From Hufsiella ginkgonis (lineage in GTDB: Bacteria > Bacteroidota > Bacteroidia > Sphingobacteriales > Sphingobacteriaceae): a stretch of 64,000 bases of DNA. Position numbers and translations under genes: made by a program. The stretch is taken from the NCBI RefSeq assembly GCF_009834915.1, contig NZ_WVHS01000001.1, positions 744,001 through 808,000 on the forward strand. Direction: 5' to 3'. Position 1 is the first letter of the stretch, and every line of letters starts with the position of its first letter. Positions 50,931 to 64,000 of the stretch are shown here, piece by piece. The notes under the pieces are model-generated. The model had not been told where the DNA came from. It did no database searches and was given only the letters and a program-made list of their open reading frames with translations.

Positions 50931-52493
50931 CTAGCCAATCCCTTCCAGATTCGCTTCCGGATGCCCTTGCATACTCTGTAACACCAATTCCCCTATAAAT
51001 TCAGCAAACGGCCCAATGTTATTCTCCACACTAGCCTTTTCCAAGGTTGTCATATACCGCTCCCGCTTACCTACCGGGATCACCGTCCAAGGATACCCTC
51101 CCGAGGCAAGCATGGCATTCATTATAAACCTCCCCATTCTCCCATTCCCATCCATATAAGGATGAATAAATACAAAGATAAAATGTCCCAGTACGGCCCG
51201 CACAGATGCTTCAGGTTCTTCTTCGAGGAGTTCAAACAACACCGGCATGGCATCCCTCATCGCATCAACAGGTAATGGGGTGTGTTTAGATCCTCCTATA
51301 TACACCTGGCTGCTACGATAGCCAGCCAAATCCGATAGCTTTAGTATTCCTGCAGCTACACTGGGATCGAATAGTTCCGTAAACCATTTCGCACGATCCT
51401 TATCGACAACGGATCCGGAATTAGCTCCATCGAGAATTTTGCCGATAGACCCCTTTACCTTCTGAAACGCCAGCCAATAGCCACGAGCCGCCATTGCATC
51501 ACGTTGCTTTTTATCAGCTTCATTGCCATCCTTGTCCCATTTGCCGCTGCTCACACGTTCAATCAGCTCGGGCGTTACCCGGTACCGCTCGATGGATAAA
51601 GAGTGATAGGCATCTGTTACGTAAATATCATCGACCCGCTGGAGGTAGTTAGCAACGTTCTTAGGCAGTCCGGGAGCTTTTGGAAATTTGTCGATCACCA
51701 CTTCTCTCATTTCCTGCCAAAGGAACTTGATCCTGTTTACCGCTGGCGAACGCTCACGCGAAGAAAGATTCACTTGAAGCTGGTATTCAAACGGATCGGA
51801 TTCACGTATCGCATAATCAGCGCCTTTCATGGTGTCGATGATGCCATCGGCGATCTTTTCCCTGGCGATATTACGAAAAGCACCGGCTAGCCTGCCGGCA
51901 ATGGTAGTATGGCCGTTTTCCAGTAATACAGGAAGCAGCTCGGAAGAATCCCGGATCATGGAAAGCGTTGTCCGGCTATCGACAGGATTCCTGGTGAAAA
52001 TGCTGGCTGATGAATAGATCAGCGAAGCTTGTAATGTATACATCCTGATGCCATTCTGCATAGTTCGCAAATCTGGATCAGGCAAATCGCTTTTCAAGTT
52101 GAATAGCGAGGTGTTATGCGGAAACGGAGTTACCGTGTTGCTCGCATCCGGTGACCGCACAATTAATTGGGTGGGGACTGTCCAGTTCCCGGCTTGAATA
52201 AGCAAGGATTGCTCGGGAGAAATTATCCAATTGTCCCCATATTTTTGTTCAAGAAACCGCGAACAAAAATCCCAATACGAACCAAACCAAGCAGTGCTGT
52301 CTCCTTTTTTTTCACCAGGATCAGCGGGGATATACCAGCCCTTTAAGACTTCGATCAGGAATCCATGCTTGGCCAACAACGAGCGCTGCGATTTATTTGG
52401 CAAATCGGAAGCGCCAACAGCTATAACGCCTCTATCCTGCACTTCCTTTAGTGCTTTAAGCGCTTCAACGAAACGTTCTCTAGGTGTTGCCAT
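50931..52493 (-). CDS. Fic family protein with AbiEi-like N-terminal domain
   Basis: 520 residues. The first 220 residues look like an AbiEi/winged-helix type domain (VGASDLPNKSQRSLLAKHGFLI; LKGWYIPADPG). The Fic core follows with HPYMDGNGRMGRFIM (about 428-442), the intact HxFx(D/E)GNGRxxR AMPylation motif (Tyr for Phe). An upstream inhibitory helix fits the S-x-x-x-E pattern (YHSLSIERY, near 300), with Arg in place of the usual Gly/Asn. The Fic domain transfers AMP to target proteins, and this inhibitory helix gates it. A 24-base tandem repeat lies in the promoter region. Confidence 0.93.
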   Translation of the reverse strand: MATPRERFVEALKALKEVQDRGVIAVGASDLPNKSQRSLLAKHGFLIEVLKGWYIPADPGEKKGDSTAWFGSYWDFCSRFLEQKYGDNWIISPEQSLLIQAGNWTVPTQLIVRSPDASNTVTPFPHNTSLFNLKSDLPDPDLRTMQNGIRMYTLQASLIYSSASIFTRNPVDSRTTLSMIRDSSELLPVLLENGHTTIAGRLAGAFRNIAREKIADGIIDTMKGADYAIRESDPFEYQLQVNLSSRERSPAVNRIKFLWQEMREVVIDKFPKAPGLPKNVANYLQRVDDIYVTDAYHSLSIERYRVTPELIERVSSGKWDKDGNEADKKQRDAMAARGYWLAFQKVKGSIGKILDGANSGSVVDKDRAKWFTELFDPSVAAGILKLSDLAGYRSSQVYIGGSKHTPLPVDAMRDAMPVLFELLEEEPEASVRAVLGHFIFVFIHPYMDGNGRMGRFIMNAMLASGGYPWTVIPVGKRERYMTTLEKASVENNIGPFAEFIGELVLQSMQGHPEANLEGIG

Positions 52494-53374: not shown

Positions 53375-53397
53375 GGGCTCTGATGAACCCTTAAAAG

Positions 53398-53600
53398 TCG
53401 GGATGGCAGGATGATCTAGCCATTTTATAAATGAATGATTGTAAGCAGGTTACATCAATCTCCAGGATAGCTGGTAACCGAAAAGGGCACATGTATTTTG
53501 GGCCGTTTTGTGGGAGGGTTGTAGGGCTAACCGGATGGAGGGTTCGTAAGTCAATGAGCCTTGGGAGTAAAGATAGGGAGAAATTTGGGAAATGGAAAAG
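53398..53600. repeat. Right copy of the diverged island repeat
   Basis: GTCGGGATGGCAG at 53398-53410 and TAAAGATAGG at 53568-53577, 170 bases apart, matching 42371 and 42539 at 168 bases. Between them AGGGTTGT, GGTAAC and GGAAATGGAAA-type blocks align. GTCGGGATGG also equals the minus-strand reading of the 3' end of some proline tRNA genes, a usual integrase target. Confidence 0.5.
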
Positions 53601-56361: not shown

Positions 56362-56397
56362 AAAGAATTGAAAAAAAATAGCTGTTTTTATGTGGCA

Positions 56398-56622
56398 ATG
56401 AATGAACAGCGAGACAAAAAGCGATTAGAAGACTTTGGCAAGCATCTAAAGGACTTAAGAGACAAGTTAGGTTTGAGCCAGGATACTGTAGTTGCGAGGT
56501 GTGATGTAACAAAGGGAAACCTCAGCAATATCGAGAACGGAAAGAAGGACTTTAATTTTACTACTCTGCTTGAGATTGCTAAAGGATTGGGAGTGAAACC
56601 AAAGGAATTGCTAGATTTCTAA
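56398..56622 (+). CDS. XRE family transcriptional regulator (second copy)
   Basis: 74 residues from ATG 56398 (MNEQRDKKRLEDFGKHL; an upstream start at 56368 adds MKKNSCFYVA, which is unlikely). Cro/C1 helix-turn-helix: DLRDKLGLSQDTVVARCDV, KGNLSNIENGKKDFN, ending AKGLGVKPKELLDF, the same end as the 23727-23951 protein. Probably regulates itself and the HipA-like gene 85 bases downstream. Confidence 0.92.
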   Translation: MNEQRDKKRLEDFGKHLKDLRDKLGLSQDTVVARCDVTKGNLSNIENGKKDFNFTTLLEIAKGLGVKPKELLDF

Positions 56623-56707
56623 ATCTACAATACAACTATCATTTTTATTACCTTAGCCTAAACATTGCCTTTCATCCTTTCGGCTGAAAGCCAGATAGCT
56701 AATCTTT

Positions 56708-57538
56708 TTGAAAAAATTAACAGCGGTACAGTTTGAAGATTACATTCAAAAAGGCGGGTCGACCAAGCCTTGGATCGTACTTGCTGTTGAAGAGGGGAAT
56801 AAATTACCGATTGCAGAAGCTTACGTAGTTAAGCTGTTTAAAAAAGATCATGCACTAAATGACTGCGCCCTTGCTTCAGAATTTATAGTTGCAGAACTCG
56901 CCAGGGAACTGGATTTAGTTGTCCCGGACAGTGCGATTATGACATTTTCAAATGACTTTGTCGAAACCCTTACTGACGAGCAAATTAAGTTTTTGGAGGG
57001 CAAACAGTATGCACCAACATTTTCATCGAGGCTATTAAACAGCTCGACACTAGTTATGGCCGAAGTTGGCAATCTGTCATCCCCTGCAGCCGAACTCGCC
57101 AAATTGTTCGCCTTCGATTGCATGGTGATTAACACAGACCGCGGAGGATTTCGGGATAAGCCGAATCTACTGGTGGATGATGACGGATTTACGCTAATTG
57201 ACCACGAGTTGTGCTTATTCTTCCTGGCATCGTCCAGTTCAACCGGCATTAATAAGCTGATGAAAAGTATTAAGGCCGGGAATATTGATATGATACAATA
57301 TGGCAGGCATATCTTTTACCAAAAGCTTAAAAGCTACAAGGGCAAAAAAGTACACTTATTCAATGAATTTGAAGAGAATTTGAGCAAACTTAATGTTGCC
57401 GGGATAGTGAAATATGCACAAAACTTGGAGCAGGAAAATATACCAGCAGGCTCCATTGATTCGTTAAATGAGTATCTTAGCCTGCTAAAACAAAACGCAT
57501 CTCAGTACTGTAACATTTTATTGGGTTTAATCCGATGA
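56708..57538 (+). CDS. HipA-like kinase-fold protein
   Basis: 276 residues from TTG 56708. Start MKKLTAVQFEDYIQKGGSTKPW, then FKKDHALNDCALASEFIV, the catalytic-like segment VINTDRGGFRDKPNLLVD (about 147-160, matching NTDRNxxNPNLL) and FTLIDHELCLFF. This is the HipA_2-type family, which pairs with DUF3037 proteins. The Asp/Asn of the active site are present. Its stop overlaps the DUF3037 start by 4 bases (ATGA). With the upstream XRE this gives a hip-like arrangement. Confidence 0.8.
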   Translation: MKKLTAVQFEDYIQKGGSTKPWIVLAVEEGNKLPIAEAYVVKLFKKDHALNDCALASEFIVAELARELDLVVPDSAIMTFSNDFVETLTDEQIKFLEGKQYAPTFSSRLLNSSTLVMAEVGNLSSPAAELAKLFAFDCMVINTDRGGFRDKPNLLVDDDGFTLIDHELCLFFLASSSSTGINKLMKSIKAGNIDMIQYGRHIFYQKLKSYKGKKVHLFNEFEENLSKLNVAGIVKYAQNLEQENIPAGSIDSLNEYLSLLKQNASQYCNILLGLIR

Positions 57539-58419
57539 AGAAAGGAACTTATACATACGGCCTCTTACAATATCGTCACTCCCAGGTTTTGGGGGAAGTG
57601 CTAAATATTGGCCTGTTGGTATATTTTCCCGATTTAAAAGTACTCCGCTTTATCTTTCCGGATAAGATTCTCCGGTTACGTTTCGCCTATCCCAATGTGC
57701 CCGAAAAGACAATTAAGGCATATTTTAAGTATTTTGAAACAAGGGTTAGCAAACTAAATGCTCAACCCGAAGTATTTGCCGATGACGCTTTATCCGAATC
57801 ATTGGAACGGTTTATAGATAAGGAATTTCTTCCCTCTGACTCATCAGCACTACAGTTTGGCAACTATCGGAAGGGGTTGCTTTATACACCCGATATCGAA
57901 GTTATTTGCGACCAGCTATATAATTTGTACTTCTCCGTTTTCCAACTGCACGAAACTACGGCTCGCCGAATTGACGAAAGTGTATTGCTGGGAAACTATA
58001 AAAAGTTGCTAAAGCAATTTAGTAATGATGAGTTAGGTGTGCTTGGTAATAAAAACAGCTTTCACCTCGATTACGAAATCGCACCGCCCGAAAAAAGCAA
58101 GTTAAGGTTTGACATTGCCTGGAACAGTTCATCAAACCTTCACCTAGTAAAACCGATAAGCTTCGATTTGCAAAAATCGGAGTCGATTGATCGTAAGGCT
58201 TACCAGTACTATGGGCGCTTTATTGATTTACAGGATTACGCCGGAAAGTCGGATTATATTTTTGATGTAATTCTGGCTAAACCTAAACATAAGCCTTTGT
58301 TTAAAGCATATGATAACGCGATCAGGTTATTGCAACAGCCTAAGTTTGTTCAATTGATCGAGCCAGATAAGTTGGAGGATTATACGCACCAAACGGTTGA
58401 AGCCTTGCTGAGTACATAA
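57535..58419 (+). CDS. DUF3037 family protein
   Basis: 294 residues. The start MKKGTYTYGLLQYRHSQVLGE is the signature DUF3037 beginning (YSVVRYxPxxxxxEfxNIGVVV form), with NIGLLVYFPD. The C-terminal half is helical. DUF3037 and HipA_2 genes are usually adjacent, as here. Function unknown. Confidence 0.88.
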   Translation: MKKGTYTYGLLQYRHSQVLGEVLNIGLLVYFPDLKVLRFIFPDKILRLRFAYPNVPEKTIKAYFKYFETRVSKLNAQPEVFADDALSESLERFIDKEFLPSDSSALQFGNYRKGLLYTPDIEVICDQLYNLYFSVFQLHETTARRIDESVLLGNYKKLLKQFSNDELGVLGNKNSFHLDYEIAPPEKSKLRFDIAWNSSSNLHLVKPISFDLQKSESIDRKAYQYYGRFIDLQDYAGKSDYIFDVILAKPKHKPLFKAYDNAIRLLQQPKFVQLIEPDKLEDYTHQTVEALLST

Positions 58420-58684: not shown

Positions 58685-59863
58685 ATGAGGCTTAAAACTA
58701 TACATCCGTTCGCCGCGAGAATGGCCCCCGAAATTGCTTTCGCCGCTCTTGACGGATTGAATTCAAAAGCTACAATATTGGACCCTATGATGGGGTCCGG
58801 TACAGTTTTGAGAACCATATCGGAACTCGGATTCAAAGGATTGGGATTCGACATTGATCCGCTTTCAGTACTCATGTCCAAAGCCTGGACATCGAAGATT
58901 AACTCTGCCCAGTTTACAAAAAACACGGTTTCACTGGCTAAAAAAGCGCTTTATTTAAATACTGATAGCATCGAATTGCCTTGGATAGACAATGATAATG
59001 AAACAACGAAATTCATTAAATTTTGGTTTGGTGATAATCAAGTGAAGGATCTGAGAAAGCTTAGCTTGCTTATTAACTCGGAAAACGGCCAGTATTCTCA
59101 TCTTTTTAAAATTGCACTCAGCCGGCTGATAATAACAAAGAGTAAAGGGGCATCTCTCGCAGCCGATATATCACATAGCCGACCACATAAGGTTAGGGAA
59201 ATTAATGATTTCGACGTTTTGGACGAATTCGTTCGATCCTGCGGGAAGCTTACACAATCGATAATGCCTGAAAAGTTGCTTGGAAAAGTAAAAGTCGTTC
59301 AGGGCGATGCAAGGTCCTTAAACAGCGTGAGAGACAAATCAATAGATTCAATAATTACCTCCCCACCCTACCTCAACGCTCTTGACTATATGAGAGGTCA
59401 TAAGTTATCATTGGTTTGGCTAGGGTTTAAAGTATCAGATCTGTCGGCGATTAGGAGTAACAGCGTTGGGGCTGAAAAGGCACCAGAGGCATCTGCGAAC
59501 CTGAAGCGAGCCAAACTACTCACCAGAAATATGCCTGAGCTTAAGAACTTGCCTGCTCGGCGTATCAACATGGTTTACCGGTACGCGCTTGATTTGGACA
59601 AAATTCTACGAGAGTCTGCACGAGTTCTTAAAAAAAACAGGAACGCAACTTTCGTTATCGGCAATTCGAGCTTACAAGGTGTTTATGTACAAAACACGTT
59701 AATAGCCGAACACGCAGCCGAATTGAACGGCTTCCGCCTTGTGGAAAGGAAAGAACGCGAGATTCCGCCTAATAAGCGCTACTTACCGCCTCCCGTTGAT
59801 GCGATCGGTTCCAATTTTAATGGCAGGATGAGAACCGAGACGGTGATAACCTTCAGGAGGTAA
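58685..59863 (+). CDS. DNA methyltransferase (N4/N6, beta-class order)
   Basis: 392 residues. Motif I is ILDPMMGSGTVLRT (about 31-44) and motif IV is IITSPPYLNALDY (about 225-237), the SPPY form typical of N4-cytosine methyltransferases. HPFAARMAPEIA near the start resembles the usual post-motif X region. No specificity subunit is encoded nearby. It opens a tight operon with a sigma-like gene 3 bases later and probably marks self DNA for it. Confidence 0.9.
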   Translation: MRLKTIHPFAARMAPEIAFAALDGLNSKATILDPMMGSGTVLRTISELGFKGLGFDIDPLSVLMSKAWTSKINSAQFTKNTVSLAKKALYLNTDSIELPWIDNDNETTKFIKFWFGDNQVKDLRKLSLLINSENGQYSHLFKIALSRLIITKSKGASLAADISHSRPHKVREINDFDVLDEFVRSCGKLTQSIMPEKLLGKVKVVQGDARSLNSVRDKSIDSIITSPPYLNALDYMRGHKLSLVWLGFKVSDLSAIRSNSVGAEKAPEASANLKRAKLLTRNMPELKNLPARRINMVYRYALDLDKILRESARVLKKNRNATFVIGNSSLQGVYVQNTLIAEHAAELNGFRLVERKEREIPPNKRYLPPPVDAIGSNFNGRMRTETVITFRR

Positions 59864-59866
59864 TCG

Positions 59867-60505
59867 ATGAAAGCCACTCAGACGGAAATAGAATATCACT
59901 TACTAATCCAAAGTCAGGATAGTTTAGCTCTGTCGAAGCTATATGACAAGTATGGCGAATTGATAATGGGTAAACTTAGCCGGCACTATCCTAAAATAGC
60001 CATGAAGGATGAATCAGTCATATTAGATGCTGTGAACCAAGCTTTCTTCGGCTATTACAAGAATCCTACAACCTTCAATCCTCAGTTGAGCAGTCTTCAT
60101 CGTTTCCTAGAAATTGCGGCTGAAAGAGACCTTAAGAATATCATACAAAAAGAGGCGAAGCACAATAACAAACAAAATCTACCTGAAGATGTCGAACTCG
60201 AGAACAACTTCTGGAATAGAATACAAAAGCAGGAAGAAGATGGAGAGTCTAAGCTAATTTTTAAAGAAACCGCACACCTTTTAGAGGTTATTTTGGCTGA
60301 GCATTTCGACGAAAGCGCAGATAGAGATATAGCGAAAATGATTCTAGCAGGAGAAAGAGAGACAAAGCCCTACGCCCAGGTTCTTAAACTATCAGACGAA
60401 CCAACGGATATACAGAAAGCCGAAGTAAAACGAGCAAAGGACAGGATAAAGAAAGTACTTGAAAGAAATAACATTACCGCAAAAATTAAGGAGATAATCA
60501 GATGA
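59867..60505 (+). CDS. Sigma-70-like protein
   Basis: 212 residues. A sigma-2-like start (LLIQSQDSLALSKLYDKYGELI), a helical middle (DAVNQAFFGYYKNPTTFNP, RFLEIAAERDLKNIIQK) and a C-terminal sigma-4-like helix-turn-helix area (DRDIAKMILAGERETKPYAQVL, RAKDRIKKVLERN). It has an ECF-type layout but is divergent. Probably directs transcription of this operon or is a regulator of it. Stop overlaps the next gene start (ATGA). Confidence 0.7.
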   Translation: MKATQTEIEYHLLIQSQDSLALSKLYDKYGELIMGKLSRHYPKIAMKDESVILDAVNQAFFGYYKNPTTFNPQLSSLHRFLEIAAERDLKNIIQKEAKHNNKQNLPEDVELENNFWNRIQKQEEDGESKLIFKETAHLLEVILAEHFDESADRDIAKMILAGERETKPYAQVLKLSDEPTDIQKAEVKRAKDRIKKVLERNNITAKIKEIIR

Positions 60506-60861
60506 TCGACAAGCTAATGTTATTGAAGAGCGCATATGAAAAGGCGGCACAAGAAAGCAAATTTCTGGCCCATACATTAGAGTCTTATATTCAAATAGAA
60601 GGAATAACACAAGCCGAAGCCATTGATGCAATAGGATCGACACAGGAGATATATTACAAACTCGGCCTATGTCTCTTACCCATCCCATCGGCTCAGAACT
60701 ATTTGGAAGAGCTTAATAAAATATGTTCTTATCTAAATATAACAGCAATTAACCTAAATAAAATTATAAAGCGGGTTGATTCCATAAACAAATTTCGCGA
60801 CTCAGGCACCTCAGAAAACGGCTTCTTGGCTGCTGCTCGTGATAGAACTAAAGAGAAATGA
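60502..60861 (+). CDS. Small helical protein, candidate anti-sigma factor
   Basis: 119 residues, all-helical, IDKLMLLKSAYEKAAQESKF, TLESYIQIEGITQAEAIDAIG, NKICSYLNITAINLNKIIKRV. No known family; no DNA-binding motif. It is wedged between a sigma-like gene (4-base overlap) and an ImmA-type protease gene (3-base gap), the usual place of the antagonist that the protease destroys. Confidence 0.6.
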   Translation: MIDKLMLLKSAYEKAAQESKFLAHTLESYIQIEGITQAEAIDAIGSTQEIYYKLGLCLLPIPSAQNYLEELNKICSYLNITAINLNKIIKRVDSINKFRDSGTSENGFLAAARDRTKEK

Positions 60862-60864
60862 GCA

Positions 60865-61617
60865 ATGCGCCTCGTTCGACCACATATCGAGAATATTGCC
60901 AAGCAGTTTTGGTCTGTAACGAACCTAGATAAGGAGCCGCCTTATGATCTCAGTGGAGCGATAAGCTTAATGTTTCCTATAGACATCGTTCAACTATCAC
61001 AGCTTTCAACCGATAAAATAAAGCAATGGCTTAAACAACGTAACGTTCAGATAGACACTGAGGTTAATGACAGACCCGTACATGGTTTTGTGATATTTTA
61101 TCGAGGAGCAGGATTTATATTTTCCGATGGCGGCGATGATGAGCGAGAGAGGCGCTACACCATCGCCCATGAAATAAGCCACTTTATATTAGACTATAAA
61201 ATACCAAGAGAAAAAATTATCAATAAGTTAGGGGCTTCGATAAGTGACGTAATCGACGGGATTAGGCCACCCACTGATGAAGAAATAGTGAAAGGAATAG
61301 TTCATGGATTGAATGTAAAGCCATTCACTCATTTATTAGAAAAAAAAGGTGACGGCTCATTTTTAAACAGCGACGTGTATAACTCGGAGAACGCCGCTGA
61401 CGAATTAGCAATCGAGTTGATAGCTCCAGCATCAAGGGTAGTTGCTGACATACTACAAGGTAATAAGCCATCGAGCTTCGGCGCATTCTCCGATCGTTGC
61501 CGGCTAGTTCTGGAAAATCGATATAAACTGCCTGGCCTTATAGCGAATGATTATGCTCGTTTGCTGGCTTATAAAGTAACGGGCGGGCCATCAATTATGT
61601 CGAGGATGGGATTTTGA
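60865..61617 (+). CDS. ImmA/IrrE-type metallopeptidase
   Basis: 250 residues. Zinc-protease site YTIAHEISHFILDYK (HEISH, about 106-110) followed by ADELAIELIAPASRV (about 176-190), both typical of ImmA/IrrE. It probably cleaves a regulator, most simply the product of the preceding gene. A 47-base gap follows before the next gene. Confidence 0.9.
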   Translation: MRLVRPHIENIAKQFWSVTNLDKEPPYDLSGAISLMFPIDIVQLSQLSTDKIKQWLKQRNVQIDTEVNDRPVHGFVIFYRGAGFIFSDGGDDERERRYTIAHEISHFILDYKIPREKIINKLGASISDVIDGIRPPTDEEIVKGIVHGLNVKPFTHLLEKKGDGSFLNSDVYNSENAADELAIELIAPASRVVADILQGNKPSSFGAFSDRCRLVLENRYKLPGLIANDYARLLAYKVTGGPSIMSRMGF

Positions 61618-61664
61618 AGTCGAACTTTTAAAAGAACCTCGGAATAGCAACTTATATAAGCTCC

Positions 61665-62849
61665 ATGGAAGACAACGAAAATATAGAAGAACGTGATTTT
61701 CCGGTTGAAAACCAAACTAATGTGGATGACTTCAAACGGGCCTACGGCGAGGATTTTTCCAATGCTATTGACATAGATACTTGGCGTATCGGAGAAAATC
61801 TAGCGCAACTCTATCCTTTGATCGAGAAGGAACTAATTCAGGCAAAACAAGACGAGCAAAAGACCCGAAGCACCTTCCGTAGTACAATTTTTCCAAAAAT
61901 AAAGGAATTACAGCATGTTCCTGCGGCAGGGCTACATAAAATTCCTAGTGAAGATATTATTGAAAAGGTTCATGCTGGCTTTTTATTCAATGGAGCGGTA
62001 ACGGCCTGTGGTAGTGTAAGCGCTGTATATGATTCCTTACCTATTTCAATAACTCAGATTGGTGTTTGTTTAGTTTCCTATCAGGGCCAGCATGGCAGCT
62101 ATTCTCACCGGCTATTCAGAAGAGACCTCAGATTCAAGGGTGATGATCCGATAAAGGAAGCGGTTGATTTACTAGAAAGGAGAAGAAGAAGCGATAACGC
62201 AGAGGGAAAGACGCAAATGAGCGATCTCGCAATAAGAGGAATTCGTACTTACGCAGAGAGAGCTATCCTTTTAGAGCGAGCTCACTCAACTTGGCTTTTA
62301 GGGGCTGGTTCGCCCACTCCGTTTGAGCTAATGACTGGGTTTTGGGCAAGCCGAACGGAGATGAAAGATCGATCAATTGCGCTAATGAAGAAAATGATCT
62401 TGGAGCATAAGAGATTTGTTTATGTCCAAAGTAGTGATAGGAGTCTGGAGCTTAAGACCTTTGGTAATGCATTAAACCCCTACGAGTATGTGGTCATCGA
62501 TACCCTTGAAGACAGATTGAAGCATATGGTAGAAGTAGGCGGCACACGCAATACTTTTCGTGACTCATATCAAAATTTTGTTCAGGAAGTAGGGCCGAAG
62601 ATAGCGTTCGGACTGTATCGCGTGTCGAAGCTTTCATCCCCAAGAATCTTCTATTGCCACGTGGACCATATTTATACAGCAGCGCACATTGCCATGGCCG
62701 ACAGCGCTCTTCAAATGCATTTAGGCTCACCAATGCTGCTTGATCTGGCAGATAGCCTCTGTAAAACAGCATTTGGCAAAAGCGACTTTGTCGCATCAAT
62801 TGAGCAAGCATATGCGAAGGCAGAGGTGGTAGTTAATATTAACAAATAA
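61665..62849 (+). CDS. NurA-like nuclease partner of HerA
   Basis: 394 residues. FNGAVTACGSVSAVYDSLPIS (about 107-127), RTYAERAILLERAHSTW (about 190-206) and a C-terminal HVDHIYTAAHIAMADSALQMHL (about 335-356). NurA nucleases are encoded before herA in many bacteria and archaea, and the size and strand-rich core fit. The first Asp expected in the nuclease site is not clearly visible, and some catalytic residues may be changed. Gap to herA is 4 bases. Confidence 0.6.
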   Translation: MEDNENIEERDFPVENQTNVDDFKRAYGEDFSNAIDIDTWRIGENLAQLYPLIEKELIQAKQDEQKTRSTFRSTIFPKIKELQHVPAAGLHKIPSEDIIEKVHAGFLFNGAVTACGSVSAVYDSLPISITQIGVCLVSYQGQHGSYSHRLFRRDLRFKGDDPIKEAVDLLERRRRSDNAEGKTQMSDLAIRGIRTYAERAILLERAHSTWLLGAGSPTPFELMTGFWASRTEMKDRSIALMKKMILEHKRFVYVQSSDRSLELKTFGNALNPYEYVVIDTLEDRLKHMVEVGGTRNTFRDSYQNFVQEVGPKIAFGLYRVSKLSSPRIFYCHVDHIYTAAHIAMADSALQMHLGSPMLLDLADSLCKTAFGKSDFVASIEQAYAKAEVVVNINK

Positions 62850-62853
62850 GCTT

Positions 62854-64000
62854 ATGGAAGAATTGGAACAAGATCCCTCAGAACAAGATGTTATTATGAA
62901 CACGCTTAATGCGGAGATTGATAATAATGGGGGCCCCTGGGAAGAAGATGAAAATTGTAAGAACGCTGACGGCATGACTATGTTCGACTTGCCAGGAAGC
63001 CAGGATAATTTATTGACAATCCTCTTGCCCAAAAAGAACATTCGAAATATTGGCGCTCACTCACTTCTCGAAATACGTAGCAGAACAACTCAGAATGGCG
63101 GAGATGGTAGAATTTATAGAGGAATTGTTGTAGCCGGGCCGTTTCATGAGCCAGATGGAATTCGTGCTGATGCTCACATGATGGTCACCACAACAATTAA
63201 TGGTGCGATATTTATGCCTAATTTTCATGGGAAGGTTCAAGTCGAATTATTAGGAGAAATGGCAGGCGATGTAATGATGCCGCCACGATTCAGGCCATTG
63301 CCTAACAGTCCAGTGTTTGTTTTGAGTAAAGAGGAGACAGCAAAAGCATTAAAGGTTGATGCTGAGCCTGGAATAACGCTAGGTGTAGCGATTGGACATG
63401 ACGATATTGAAGTTAAAATTCCATCGGATAAAAAAACAGTCATCCCAAGACATATTGGCATCCTTGGTACGACTGGCGGAGGAAAATCCACTACTGTTTC
63501 TGGCTTAATGAGTCAATTTCAAAAGAAAGGTATTGCAACGATAGTCATAGATACAGAAGGTGAGTACACTCATATTGATAAACCAGCGTCCGATGAGAAA
63601 ATGAAAATGCTACTGAAAAGGCGCGGGCTGAAAACCGAAGAAGCGCTAATTACGGTCTATCACCTTATTAATCGAAAAACGAGGGCAGAGAAACCTACTC
63701 CTACTAAAGAGTTTACTCTCAGCTTTTCATCGTTATCGCCGTACGCGATAGCTGACTTACTAGGATTAACAGAGGCACAATATATTCGATTCTTCAAAAC
63801 ATATGATGCAGCAAAAAGAGTTTTAAGAGATTTGCAGCTCTTTCCGAAGAAAGGACAAGAGACACAAGCTCTAGAAATCGATGAATTCGATACTGGCTAC
63901 CCGCAAATTACCATTTCACTATTGACGGATGTTGCCGGCATGATGCTCGATTCGGTGTCTCAAGGAACAACGACCTCGATTGTCCGTAATGATTTTATAA
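62854..64000 (+). CDS. HerA-type ATPase, N-terminal part (cut by window end)
   Basis: From ATG 62854 the frame stays open to the window end. A HAS-barrel-like N-terminal domain is followed by Walker A at HIGILGTTGGGKSTT (about 205-219) and then AIVIDTEGEYTH, the FtsK-HerA signature. HerA is a hexameric DNA translocase that works with NurA. The C-terminal Walker B and arginine region lie outside. The operon may continue past 64 kb. Confidence 0.9.
   Translation, partial: MEELEQDPSEQDVIMNTLNAEIDNNGGPWEEDENCKNADGMTMFDLPGSQDNLLTILLPKKNIRNIGAHSLLEIRSRTTQNGGDGRIYRGIVVAGPFHEPDGIRADAHMMVTTTINGAIFMPNFHGKVQVELLGEMAGDVMMPPRFRPLPNSPVFVLSKEETAKALKVDAEPGITLGVAIGHDDIEVKIPSDKKTVIPRHIGILGTTGGGKSTTVSGLMSQFQKKGIATIVIDTEGEYTHIDKPASDEKMKMLLKRRGLKTEEALITVYHLINRKTRAEKPTPTKEFTLSFSSLSPYAIADLLGLTEAQYIRFFKTYDAAKRVLRDLQLFPKKGQETQALEIDEFDTGYPQITISLLTDVAGMMLDSVSQGTTTSIVRNDFI

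Follow-up and report, generated by a model that had tools for sequence, protein, structure and literature searches.

A HerA–NurA-fold module with its own sigma-like gene and a private promoter-like motif, a candidate inducible system for DNA-based defence

Small protease switches and DNA-processing pairs that resemble parts of the locus described here are known from several prokaryotes. CapP, a protease activated by single-stranded DNA (ssDNA), cleaves CapH (PMC13373217), and in PprI/DdrO a ssDNA-activated IrrE-type protease cleaves a small helix-turn-helix (HTH) repressor (PMC10904395). In archaea, Csa3 regulators increase the expression of nurA-herA and also govern genes of CRISPR adaptation or interference (PMC10013973, PMC7480081), and a nurA-csm6-herA arrangement stands at CRISPR arrays in Pyrobaculum (PMC3396285). 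We analysed a window of 64,000 nucleotides from Hufsiella ginkgonis (contig NZ_WVHS01000001.1; G000:C1:744001-808000, where G000 is the host genome), at the end of which an operon encodes a sigma-like protein, a small helical protein, an ImmA-type protease, a NurA-fold protein and HerA, preceded by a methyltransferase. With a probability of roughly 0.6, we read these genes as a self-contained, inducible DNA-processing module for defence, in which a protease-released sigma factor would induce nurA-herA and further cargo. All results come from computational analysis of sequences and structures; loci are numbered with L and genomes with G, and L002 is a stretch of the host contig fetched to reach past the window.

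The initial annotation of the window had described six same-direction genes separated by gaps of 3, -4, 3, 47 and 4 bases, which the coordinates of the open reading frames (ORFs) bear out exactly, and its calls of methyltransferase, sigma, ImmA, NurA-like and HerA genes hold in family, profile and fold matches. It also expected the operon to continue past the window. This is so for the remainder of HerA, which ends at window coordinate 64689, and for an ORF of 53 amino acids (aa), and it goes no further: the next large gene of the host contig is encoded on the other strand, so HerA (plus the 53-aa ORF) completes the operon. The features, in window coordinates, are:

58685 to 59863, + strand: DNA methyltransferase, 392 aa, optional accessory gene (DPMMGSGT and TSPPY motifs; PADLOC)
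59867 to 60505, + strand: sigma-70/extracytoplasmic function (ECF)-like sigma factor, 212 aa, core gene 1 (TIGR02937; family profile against RpoE/ECF structures)
60191 to 60219, + strand, inside the sigma gene: motif site 1, GTCGAACTCGAGAACAACTTCTGGAATAG, candidate internal promoter for the small protein and ImmA (exact genome match; codon bias)
60502 to 60861, + strand: small protein, predicted all-helical, 119 aa, core gene 2 (AlphaFold; weak Foldseek matches)
60865 to 61617, + strand: ImmA/IrrE/CapP-like M78 metallopeptidase, 250 aa, core gene 3 (PF06114; CapP/IrrE structures)
61619 to 61647, + strand, 46 bp 5' of the nurA start codon: motif site 2, GTCGAACTTTTAAAAGAACCTCGGAATAG, candidate sigma-dependent promoter (conservation; exact genome search)
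61665 to 62849, + strand: 394-aa protein of NurA fold, catalytic residues altered, core gene 4 (Foldseek match to NurA 2ygk)
62854 to 64000, and on to 64689 past the window, + strand: HerA hexameric DNA translocase, 611 aa, core gene 5 (Pfam; Walker motifs)
64709 to 64737, past the window, + strand: motif site 3 (exact genome search)
64821 to 64982 (L002:8821-8982), past the window: 53-aa ORF lacking a Pfam match, followed by an intrinsic terminator

A search of 395 Bacteroidota genomes with the NurA-like protein returned two carriers, the host and Fibrella rubiginis, the latter with all six genes in the same order and 27-43% identity for the five that were aligned. A two-sequence profile then retrieved 16 loci from 84,980 species genomes, the Fibrella locus among them, and further carriers were 16 of 251 Chloroflexota and one of 294 Planctomycetota (the query's own genome); the same NurA-like query found no relative in plasmids and viral contigs. 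We examined 31 distinct loci from Bacteroidota, Chloroflexota, Bacillota, Planctomycetota and Myxococcota. In 27 of them the core sigma–small protein–ImmA–NurA–HerA is kept in the same order on one strand; three of the other four end at contig edges, and L084 has NurA-HerA without adjacent regulators. Recurrence of these genes in one order across five phyla makes the set more than a chance assembly. The initial annotation had named an unlinking of the sigma/ImmA genes from the HerA genes as evidence against it, and the linkage holds: when the same 251 Chloroflexota genomes were searched with an ImmA profile, a clean gap separated specific from generic matches, and the specific ones were those of all 16/16 NurA-positive genomes and of G443, where the contig breaks off right after ImmA. 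The regulators are therefore linked to NurA-HerA, and the five core genes make up an ancient and portable unit. The Fibrella HerA (L006:7806-9647) lies in two reading frames, through a frameshift or stop, and this copy may therefore be broken. The most divergent member of the module (L085:1-17000) has an unrecognised 136-aa ORF in the slot of the small protein, adjoins a TnsB-type transposase, and is probably cargo of a Tn7-like element.

The core also shares a DNA motif. Comparison of the ImmA–NurA gaps across Bacteroidota, Chloroflexota, Bacillota and Planctomycetota revealed GTCGAACTT(T/C), about 11 bases and (C/G/T)GGAA(T/C)A, a non-palindromic pair of blocks that can be written GTCGAACTY-N11-YYGGAATAG, with the start of nurA usually about 46-53 bp past its first base. 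At a score of at least 18, a position weight matrix (PWM) trained on 13 nurA-proximal sites, with the sigma-internal and downstream sites (sites 1 and 3 included) left unused, finds the motif before nurA in 21/31 loci; the motif recurs within the sigma gene, in frame at a single conserved position, and also behind HerA, 5' of the next gene block. The 504 kb of loci contain about 46 matches at a threshold where shuffled sequence would give 0.3. The complete host genome (5.2 Mb) has exactly three, at window positions 60191, 61619 and 64709, and in this genome-wide exact search no general repair gene carries the motif. Among 26 carrier genomes, 27 of the 33 matches lie in or beside the core (a reversed control pattern gives 3), and 59 relatives yield one match against three for the control. 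Both blind intergenic matches outside the core in carrier genomes precede cas operons: the one in G406 stands 48 bp 5' of cas6-cas2-cas4 with a CRISPR array, which form the end of the same cas locus, and the one in G784 lies 5' of cas1-cas3, on a contig without the sigma and nurA-herA genes of that genome. The motif can find members of the regulon by simple search, two cas operons having already been found blind. Matches outside the locus in G407, G411, G413 and G415 fall inside unrelated reading frames, one of them SecA-like, and we set them aside as background.

Within the sigma gene the site is constrained at the DNA level: across homologues, its Leu codon is CTT or CTC (CTY) in 17/17 cases against 43% elsewhere, and its Glu codon is GAA in 14/16 against 45% elsewhere, the Val codon being uninformative because the scan required GTC. 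A simple sigma-70 scan of the region gave 13 matches for 7.7 expected and is uninformative. We consider the motif most likely to be the promoter of the operon's own sigma factor. In L022, cas4-cas1 at the far end of the cas operon has its own motif site (L022:18763-18821), which shares bases with a long palindrome (CCTCCACATCTTCGGA...TCCGAAGATGTGGAGG) that may be an additional operator.

The three genes ahead of nurA-herA resemble a control set. The sigma protein matches NCBIfam TIGR02937 over residues 21-199 (1.1e-5; 25.1 bits, below the cut-off of 42.9), and its family profile matches region 2 of RpoE (2q1z) and ECF structures at 0.0012, with weaker similarity in region 4. The ImmA protein matches Pfam M78 (PF06114) at 9.5e-5; its nearest solved structures are CapP (2.7e-4) and IrrE (0.0034), and in the alignment of homologues HExxH and the third-ligand motif E..AD.LA.ELLAP are conserved, with all expected metal ligands kept. 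The small protein has no meaningful family match in Pfam, NCBIfam or PADLOC. It is predicted to be all-helical (AlphaFold predicted local distance difference test, pLDDT, 82.7), and its top Foldseek matches are Cro/C1 HTH proteins including C.BclI, CapH and DdrO, none below E 0.5 and those to CapH and DdrO, at E 1.3-1.6, not significant; a C-terminal tail, L/A-AARDR, is conserved among homologues. The model suggests that this protein probably has a Cro/C1-type HTH fold, which makes it a candidate antagonist of the sigma factor and a candidate substrate of the protease.

The genes that would be switched on encode a recognisable ATPase and a less recognisable partner. HerA matches Pfam at 5.5e-24 and keeps Walker A (GGGKST) and Walker B (IIIEEAHEF), and its gene adjoins that of the NurA-fold protein, as in a HerA-NurA pair. 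The structure model of the NurA-like protein (pLDDT 80.8) has S. solfataricus NurA (2ygk) as top Foldseek match in the PDB, at 2e-6; at the sequence level the protein has no Pfam match to the NurA family PF09376, even at E 0.1, and no meaningful family match in Pfam, NCBIfam or PADLOC. A profile comparison with canonical NurA gave E 0.011 at a probability of 3.9, and a phmmer search of the PDB with canonical NurA gave no match. The profile alignment was too weak with three canonical sequences and was redone with 32; in it the families align co-linearly, and the position of the catalytic DGS Asp falls on a Gly, window residue 116. Of 31 relatives, 25 retain this Asp and 6 have G, N or A in its place, Glu198 is invariant, and an H-x-D-H group (332-335) is nearly so. 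Model and alignments point to a NurA fold with a remodelled active site, so that the window copy may be inactive or use other residues, and they suggest that NurA-fold proteins have been remodelled for defence. The translocase/nuclease pair of the initial annotation is upheld as regards HerA and the fold of its partner, and its nuclease role is doubtful in the window copy because the essential Asp of NurA is missing. Canonical NurA occurs in 0/11 related and 3/15 carrier genomes, so the module is not a simple duplicate of a resident NurA.

What lies behind HerA connects the module to other defence systems. Twelve of the 31 loci (about 27 being evaluable) run on the same strand from HerA into cas genes, of type I-G in L012, L013, L016, L017, L021 and L022, of a type I-A/B-like kind in L008, L072 and L083, and of type III-B in L073, after a 45-bp gap; in L081 and L082 the genes are cas4-cas1. 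On the core-gene tree, whose deep nodes are weakly supported, cas-linked loci fall in several distinct clades and involve different CRISPR types; such recurrent adjacency to cas genes in independent lineages is what one would look for in a CRISPR accessory module. Relatives frequently carry the module as an appendage of other defence loci, most of all CRISPR-Cas, and the parallel with archaeal Csa3 and with nurA-csm6-herA supports, by analogy, a possible role in DNA processing for adaptation or repair where CRISPR is present. Other neighbours include type I restriction-modification (R-M) in L007 and Mokosh/Dpd-like helicases in L009 and L084. In L007, site 3 precedes an operon with multiubiquitin (PF14452) and ThiF (PF00899) genes (L007:12206-14618), a ubiquitin-like alternative cargo. 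Directly behind HerA in L074 (L074:12509-16407) lie a complete second sigma-70 (regions 2-4; also a PADLOC MzaA match) and, with it, a 900-aa Druantia/Shango-like helicase. In the planctomycete loci L012 (7558 onward) and L013 (8382-8603), a 73-aa protein without Pfam match stands between site 3 and cas4-cas1.

The methyltransferase behaves differently from the core. It matches PADLOC MTase_II at 6e-28 and is 43% identical in Fibrella, but we found it in only about 14/31 loci, two of these with weak similarity, and rejected it as a defining part. It is mostly upstream and on the same strand, divergent in L008, and downstream on the opposite strand in L011. Unlike in type II R-M, the pairing of methyltransferase and nuclease gene is not constant, and the scan of the 504 kb of loci found the motif 5' of no methyltransferase. 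The enzyme is probably constitutive and may mark host DNA or serve a neighbouring system. The initial annotation had put self-marking by this enzyme, together with DNA destruction, at the core of the system; this does not survive the comparison, because a gene present in about 14/31 loci, and on the opposite strand in two of them, makes an R-M-like system no common denominator.

From these observations we infer the following chain of events: 1) DNA stress, probably single-stranded or broken invader DNA, would activate the ImmA-type protease; 2) the protease would cleave the HTH-like small protein; 3) this cleavage would release or derepress the dedicated sigma factor; 4) the sigma factor would guide RNA polymerase to promoters with the pattern GTCGAACTT-N11-CGGAATA, private to the locus; 5) transcription would rise for nurA-herA (site 2), for the regulators themselves in a feedback loop (site 1) and for the downstream cargo (site 3); 6) HerA would move DNA ends into or past its NurA-fold partner, and invader DNA would be degraded or processed; and 7) in the CRISPR-linked relatives, the same induction would raise the expression of cas1, cas2, cas4 and cas3. 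A wider proposal, which we find plausible though short of even odds, sees here a portable sigma regulon for DNA-based immunity, in which the locus-private promoter switches a HerA–NurA-fold machine and any cargo, including CRISPR acquisition and interference genes; in CRISPR hosts, damage would be coupled to on-demand adaptation, with HerA-NurA supplying DNA ends and the NurA-fold protein acting through a remodelled site or as an adaptor.

Several points weigh against this reading. The host genome has no Cas1 in a genome search, so the CRISPR role cannot apply in the host of the window. The window copy of the NurA-like protein lacks the catalytic Asp, and mutation of this residue (D49A) abolishes the activity of T. 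kodakarensis NurA (PMC12977600); a second canonical Asp, placed by topology, is lost across the NurA-like family and mostly replaced by His. The scores of the nurA sites are partly circular because 13 of them trained the PWM, the motif is not recognisable 5' of nurA in L009, L015, L018, L020 and L081, and it is only weak in L021 and L082. That its reader is the sigma-like protein, and not another regulator, we infer from architecture and co-occurrence, and the HTH fold of the small protein is weakly supported (best Foldseek E 0.5).

Other explanations account for parts of the same evidence. The motif might be an operator of the small protein or of another DNA-binding protein, as the weak Cro/C1-type fold and the repressor function of CapH and DdrO would allow. 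Two different, non-palindromic blocks at nearly fixed spacing, pointing toward nurA about 50 bp 5' of its start codon and nearly always in the same locus as a sigma gene, make this quite improbable. The module could also be a horizontally spread analogue of the PprI-DdrO response of Deinococcus for DNA-damage repair, in which HerA-NurA resects the cell's own breaks and the linkage to defence is incidental. The protease is of the ImmA/IrrE type, canonical HerA-NurA resects DNA ends (PMC12977600), breaks are also produced by CRISPR interference and adaptation, and the archaeal Csa3 regulators co-induce herA-nurA repair genes (PMC7480081, PMC10013973). We nevertheless hold it rather unlikely, given that cas genes follow directly in 12 of about 27 evaluable loci and other loci adjoin type I R-M, Mokosh/Druantia-like helicases or ubiquitin-like operons; that the module travels as mobile-element cargo, both in the host element and beside TnsB in L085; that its distribution is patchy (2/395 Bacteroidota); and that the host's general repair genes are free of the motif.

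Two further alternatives keep the defence role. An abortive-infection effector, in which HerA-NurA, once set free, would destroy all DNA and with it the infected cell, the sigma factor and protease being a safety catch, would have a precedent in DUF4297-HerA, which kills by non-specific DNA degradation (PMC11291478), and tight multi-layer control and carriage in defence islands suit a toxic effector. The altered active site of the window NurA, the apparent co-regulation with CRISPR adaptation genes, which suggests DNA processing and not suicide, and the slowness of transcriptional induction for such a response make it unlikely. The stand-alone R-M-like system of the initial annotation, in which the methyltransferase marks self, HerA-NurA destroys unmarked DNA and sigma/ImmA times the nuclease, agrees with operons that include the methyltransferase, here as well as in L006, L007, L074 and L077-L080, and a motif before nurA and not before the methyltransferase fits protect-first timing. 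It seems quite unlikely to us, as the enzyme is missing from about half of the loci and divergent or on the opposite strand in L008 and L011, no sequence specificity is known for NurA-type nucleases, and catalytic residues are degraded in the window copy.

An integrative element of ~18.7 kb carries the operon as cargo; it is bounded by two direct copies of 20 bp from a tRNA 3' end, one at window 53393-53412 and the other at L002:16130-16149 (about window 72130). The element carries a tyrosine integrase and a relaxase, both named from sequence character, a MobC-like gene and a SIR2-like gene at L002:13137, which is 4.4 kb downstream of HerA and outside the operon; the only match of an Rfam scan is the tRNA near the integrase. 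Directly upstream of the operon lies a trio of XRE HTH, HipA_2 kinase and DUF3037 genes (window 56368-58419), of which the latter two match the PADLOC candidate system PDC-M66 (1e-29, 2e-36), within the element. Two Fic-like genes (window 50931-52493 and L002:9061-10616) are 86% identical in DNA, the second being inside the element and split by a frameshift. In the stretch from site 3 to the terminator (L002:8709-9012, window 64709-65012), the -10 side of site 3 is within a long inverted repeat, and the RNA of the 53-aa ORF region has a much more stable fold than shuffled sequence (z -5.0), with a strong hairpin and then U's at its end.

It has long been asked how bacteria keep dangerous DNA-degrading immunity and the acquisition of CRISPR spacers silent until they are required. 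A switch of five genes whose promoter-like sequence is sharply defined, found in five phyla and 5' of several kinds of cas operon, makes this question directly testable. Among described systems, DUF4297-HerA and SIR2-HerA (PMC11291478) share HerA, a nuclease or effector partner and the defence context. They differ in that the partner here has a NurA fold and is accompanied by a dedicated sigma factor, an HTH-like small protein and a protease; Pfam and PADLOC find no DUF4297 or SIR2 partner gene in the operon, and our HerA reaches 60 bits against the NCBIfam HerA_antiphage models, whose cut-offs are 800-850. The archaeal and bacterial HerA-NurA end-resection complex (PMC12977600) has the same HerA ATPase motifs and NurA fold, but the Pfam NurA model misses the protein found here, in which the DGS Asp is lost, the second Asp is replaced and an HxDH group is new, and the coupling to sigma/ImmA is a further difference. 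The arrangement of nurA-herA beside CRISPR arrays or cas genes is shared with Pyrobaculum nurA-csm6-herA (PMC3396285) and with the FLSHclust NurA/HerA (PMC10910872). A FLSHclust figure legend lists NurA and HerA as putative CRISPR auxiliary genes and names only these two, and part of the NurA-HerA/CRISPR linkage may already be in the FLSHclust tables; neither paper, in its passages on this pair, speaks of a sigma factor, an ImmA protease or a promoter in common. HerA/FtsK capture systems and BRC systems (PMC10853773, PMC12839542) share a HerA/FtsK translocase with DNA-binding partners in anti-invader islands, but their cores (ORC/Cdc6 ATPase, restriction endonuclease, PglZ, DUF4007) are absent here; NurA is mentioned in neither paper, nor ImmA in PMC12839542.

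On the regulatory side, CapH-CapP and PprI-DdrO (PMC13373217, PMC10904395) share an M78-type protease beside a small, possibly HTH protein, 5' of a DNA-related operon, and a DNA-damage signal is likely common to all. They differ from our locus, which has a sigma factor and its own promoter set, not simple repression, and a small protein whose similarity to theirs is not significant. The protease–sigma axis of type III-E CRISPR is that of Csx30 and RpoE. In type III-E, a CRISPR protease cleaves a sigma-factor inhibitor (PMC11291478), and, compared by description, the action of a protease on such an inhibitor, proposed for our locus, and a CRISPR context are shared; the protease is caspase-like there and a metalloprotease here, where it is not RNA-guided. 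PADLOC, NCBIfam and Pfam recognise generic parts and have no model that names the gene set, and a literature search with supplements outside its scope found no published description of the combination, in line with the initial annotation, to which no described system with such sigma and ImmA-type control was known. HerA-effector defence, CRISPR-linked nurA-herA and protease/repressor switches are each known; new, with respect to the literature and models searched, is their combination with a dedicated sigma factor and a private promoter, and the module seems to be a so far undescribed means of switching on DNA-based immunity when required.

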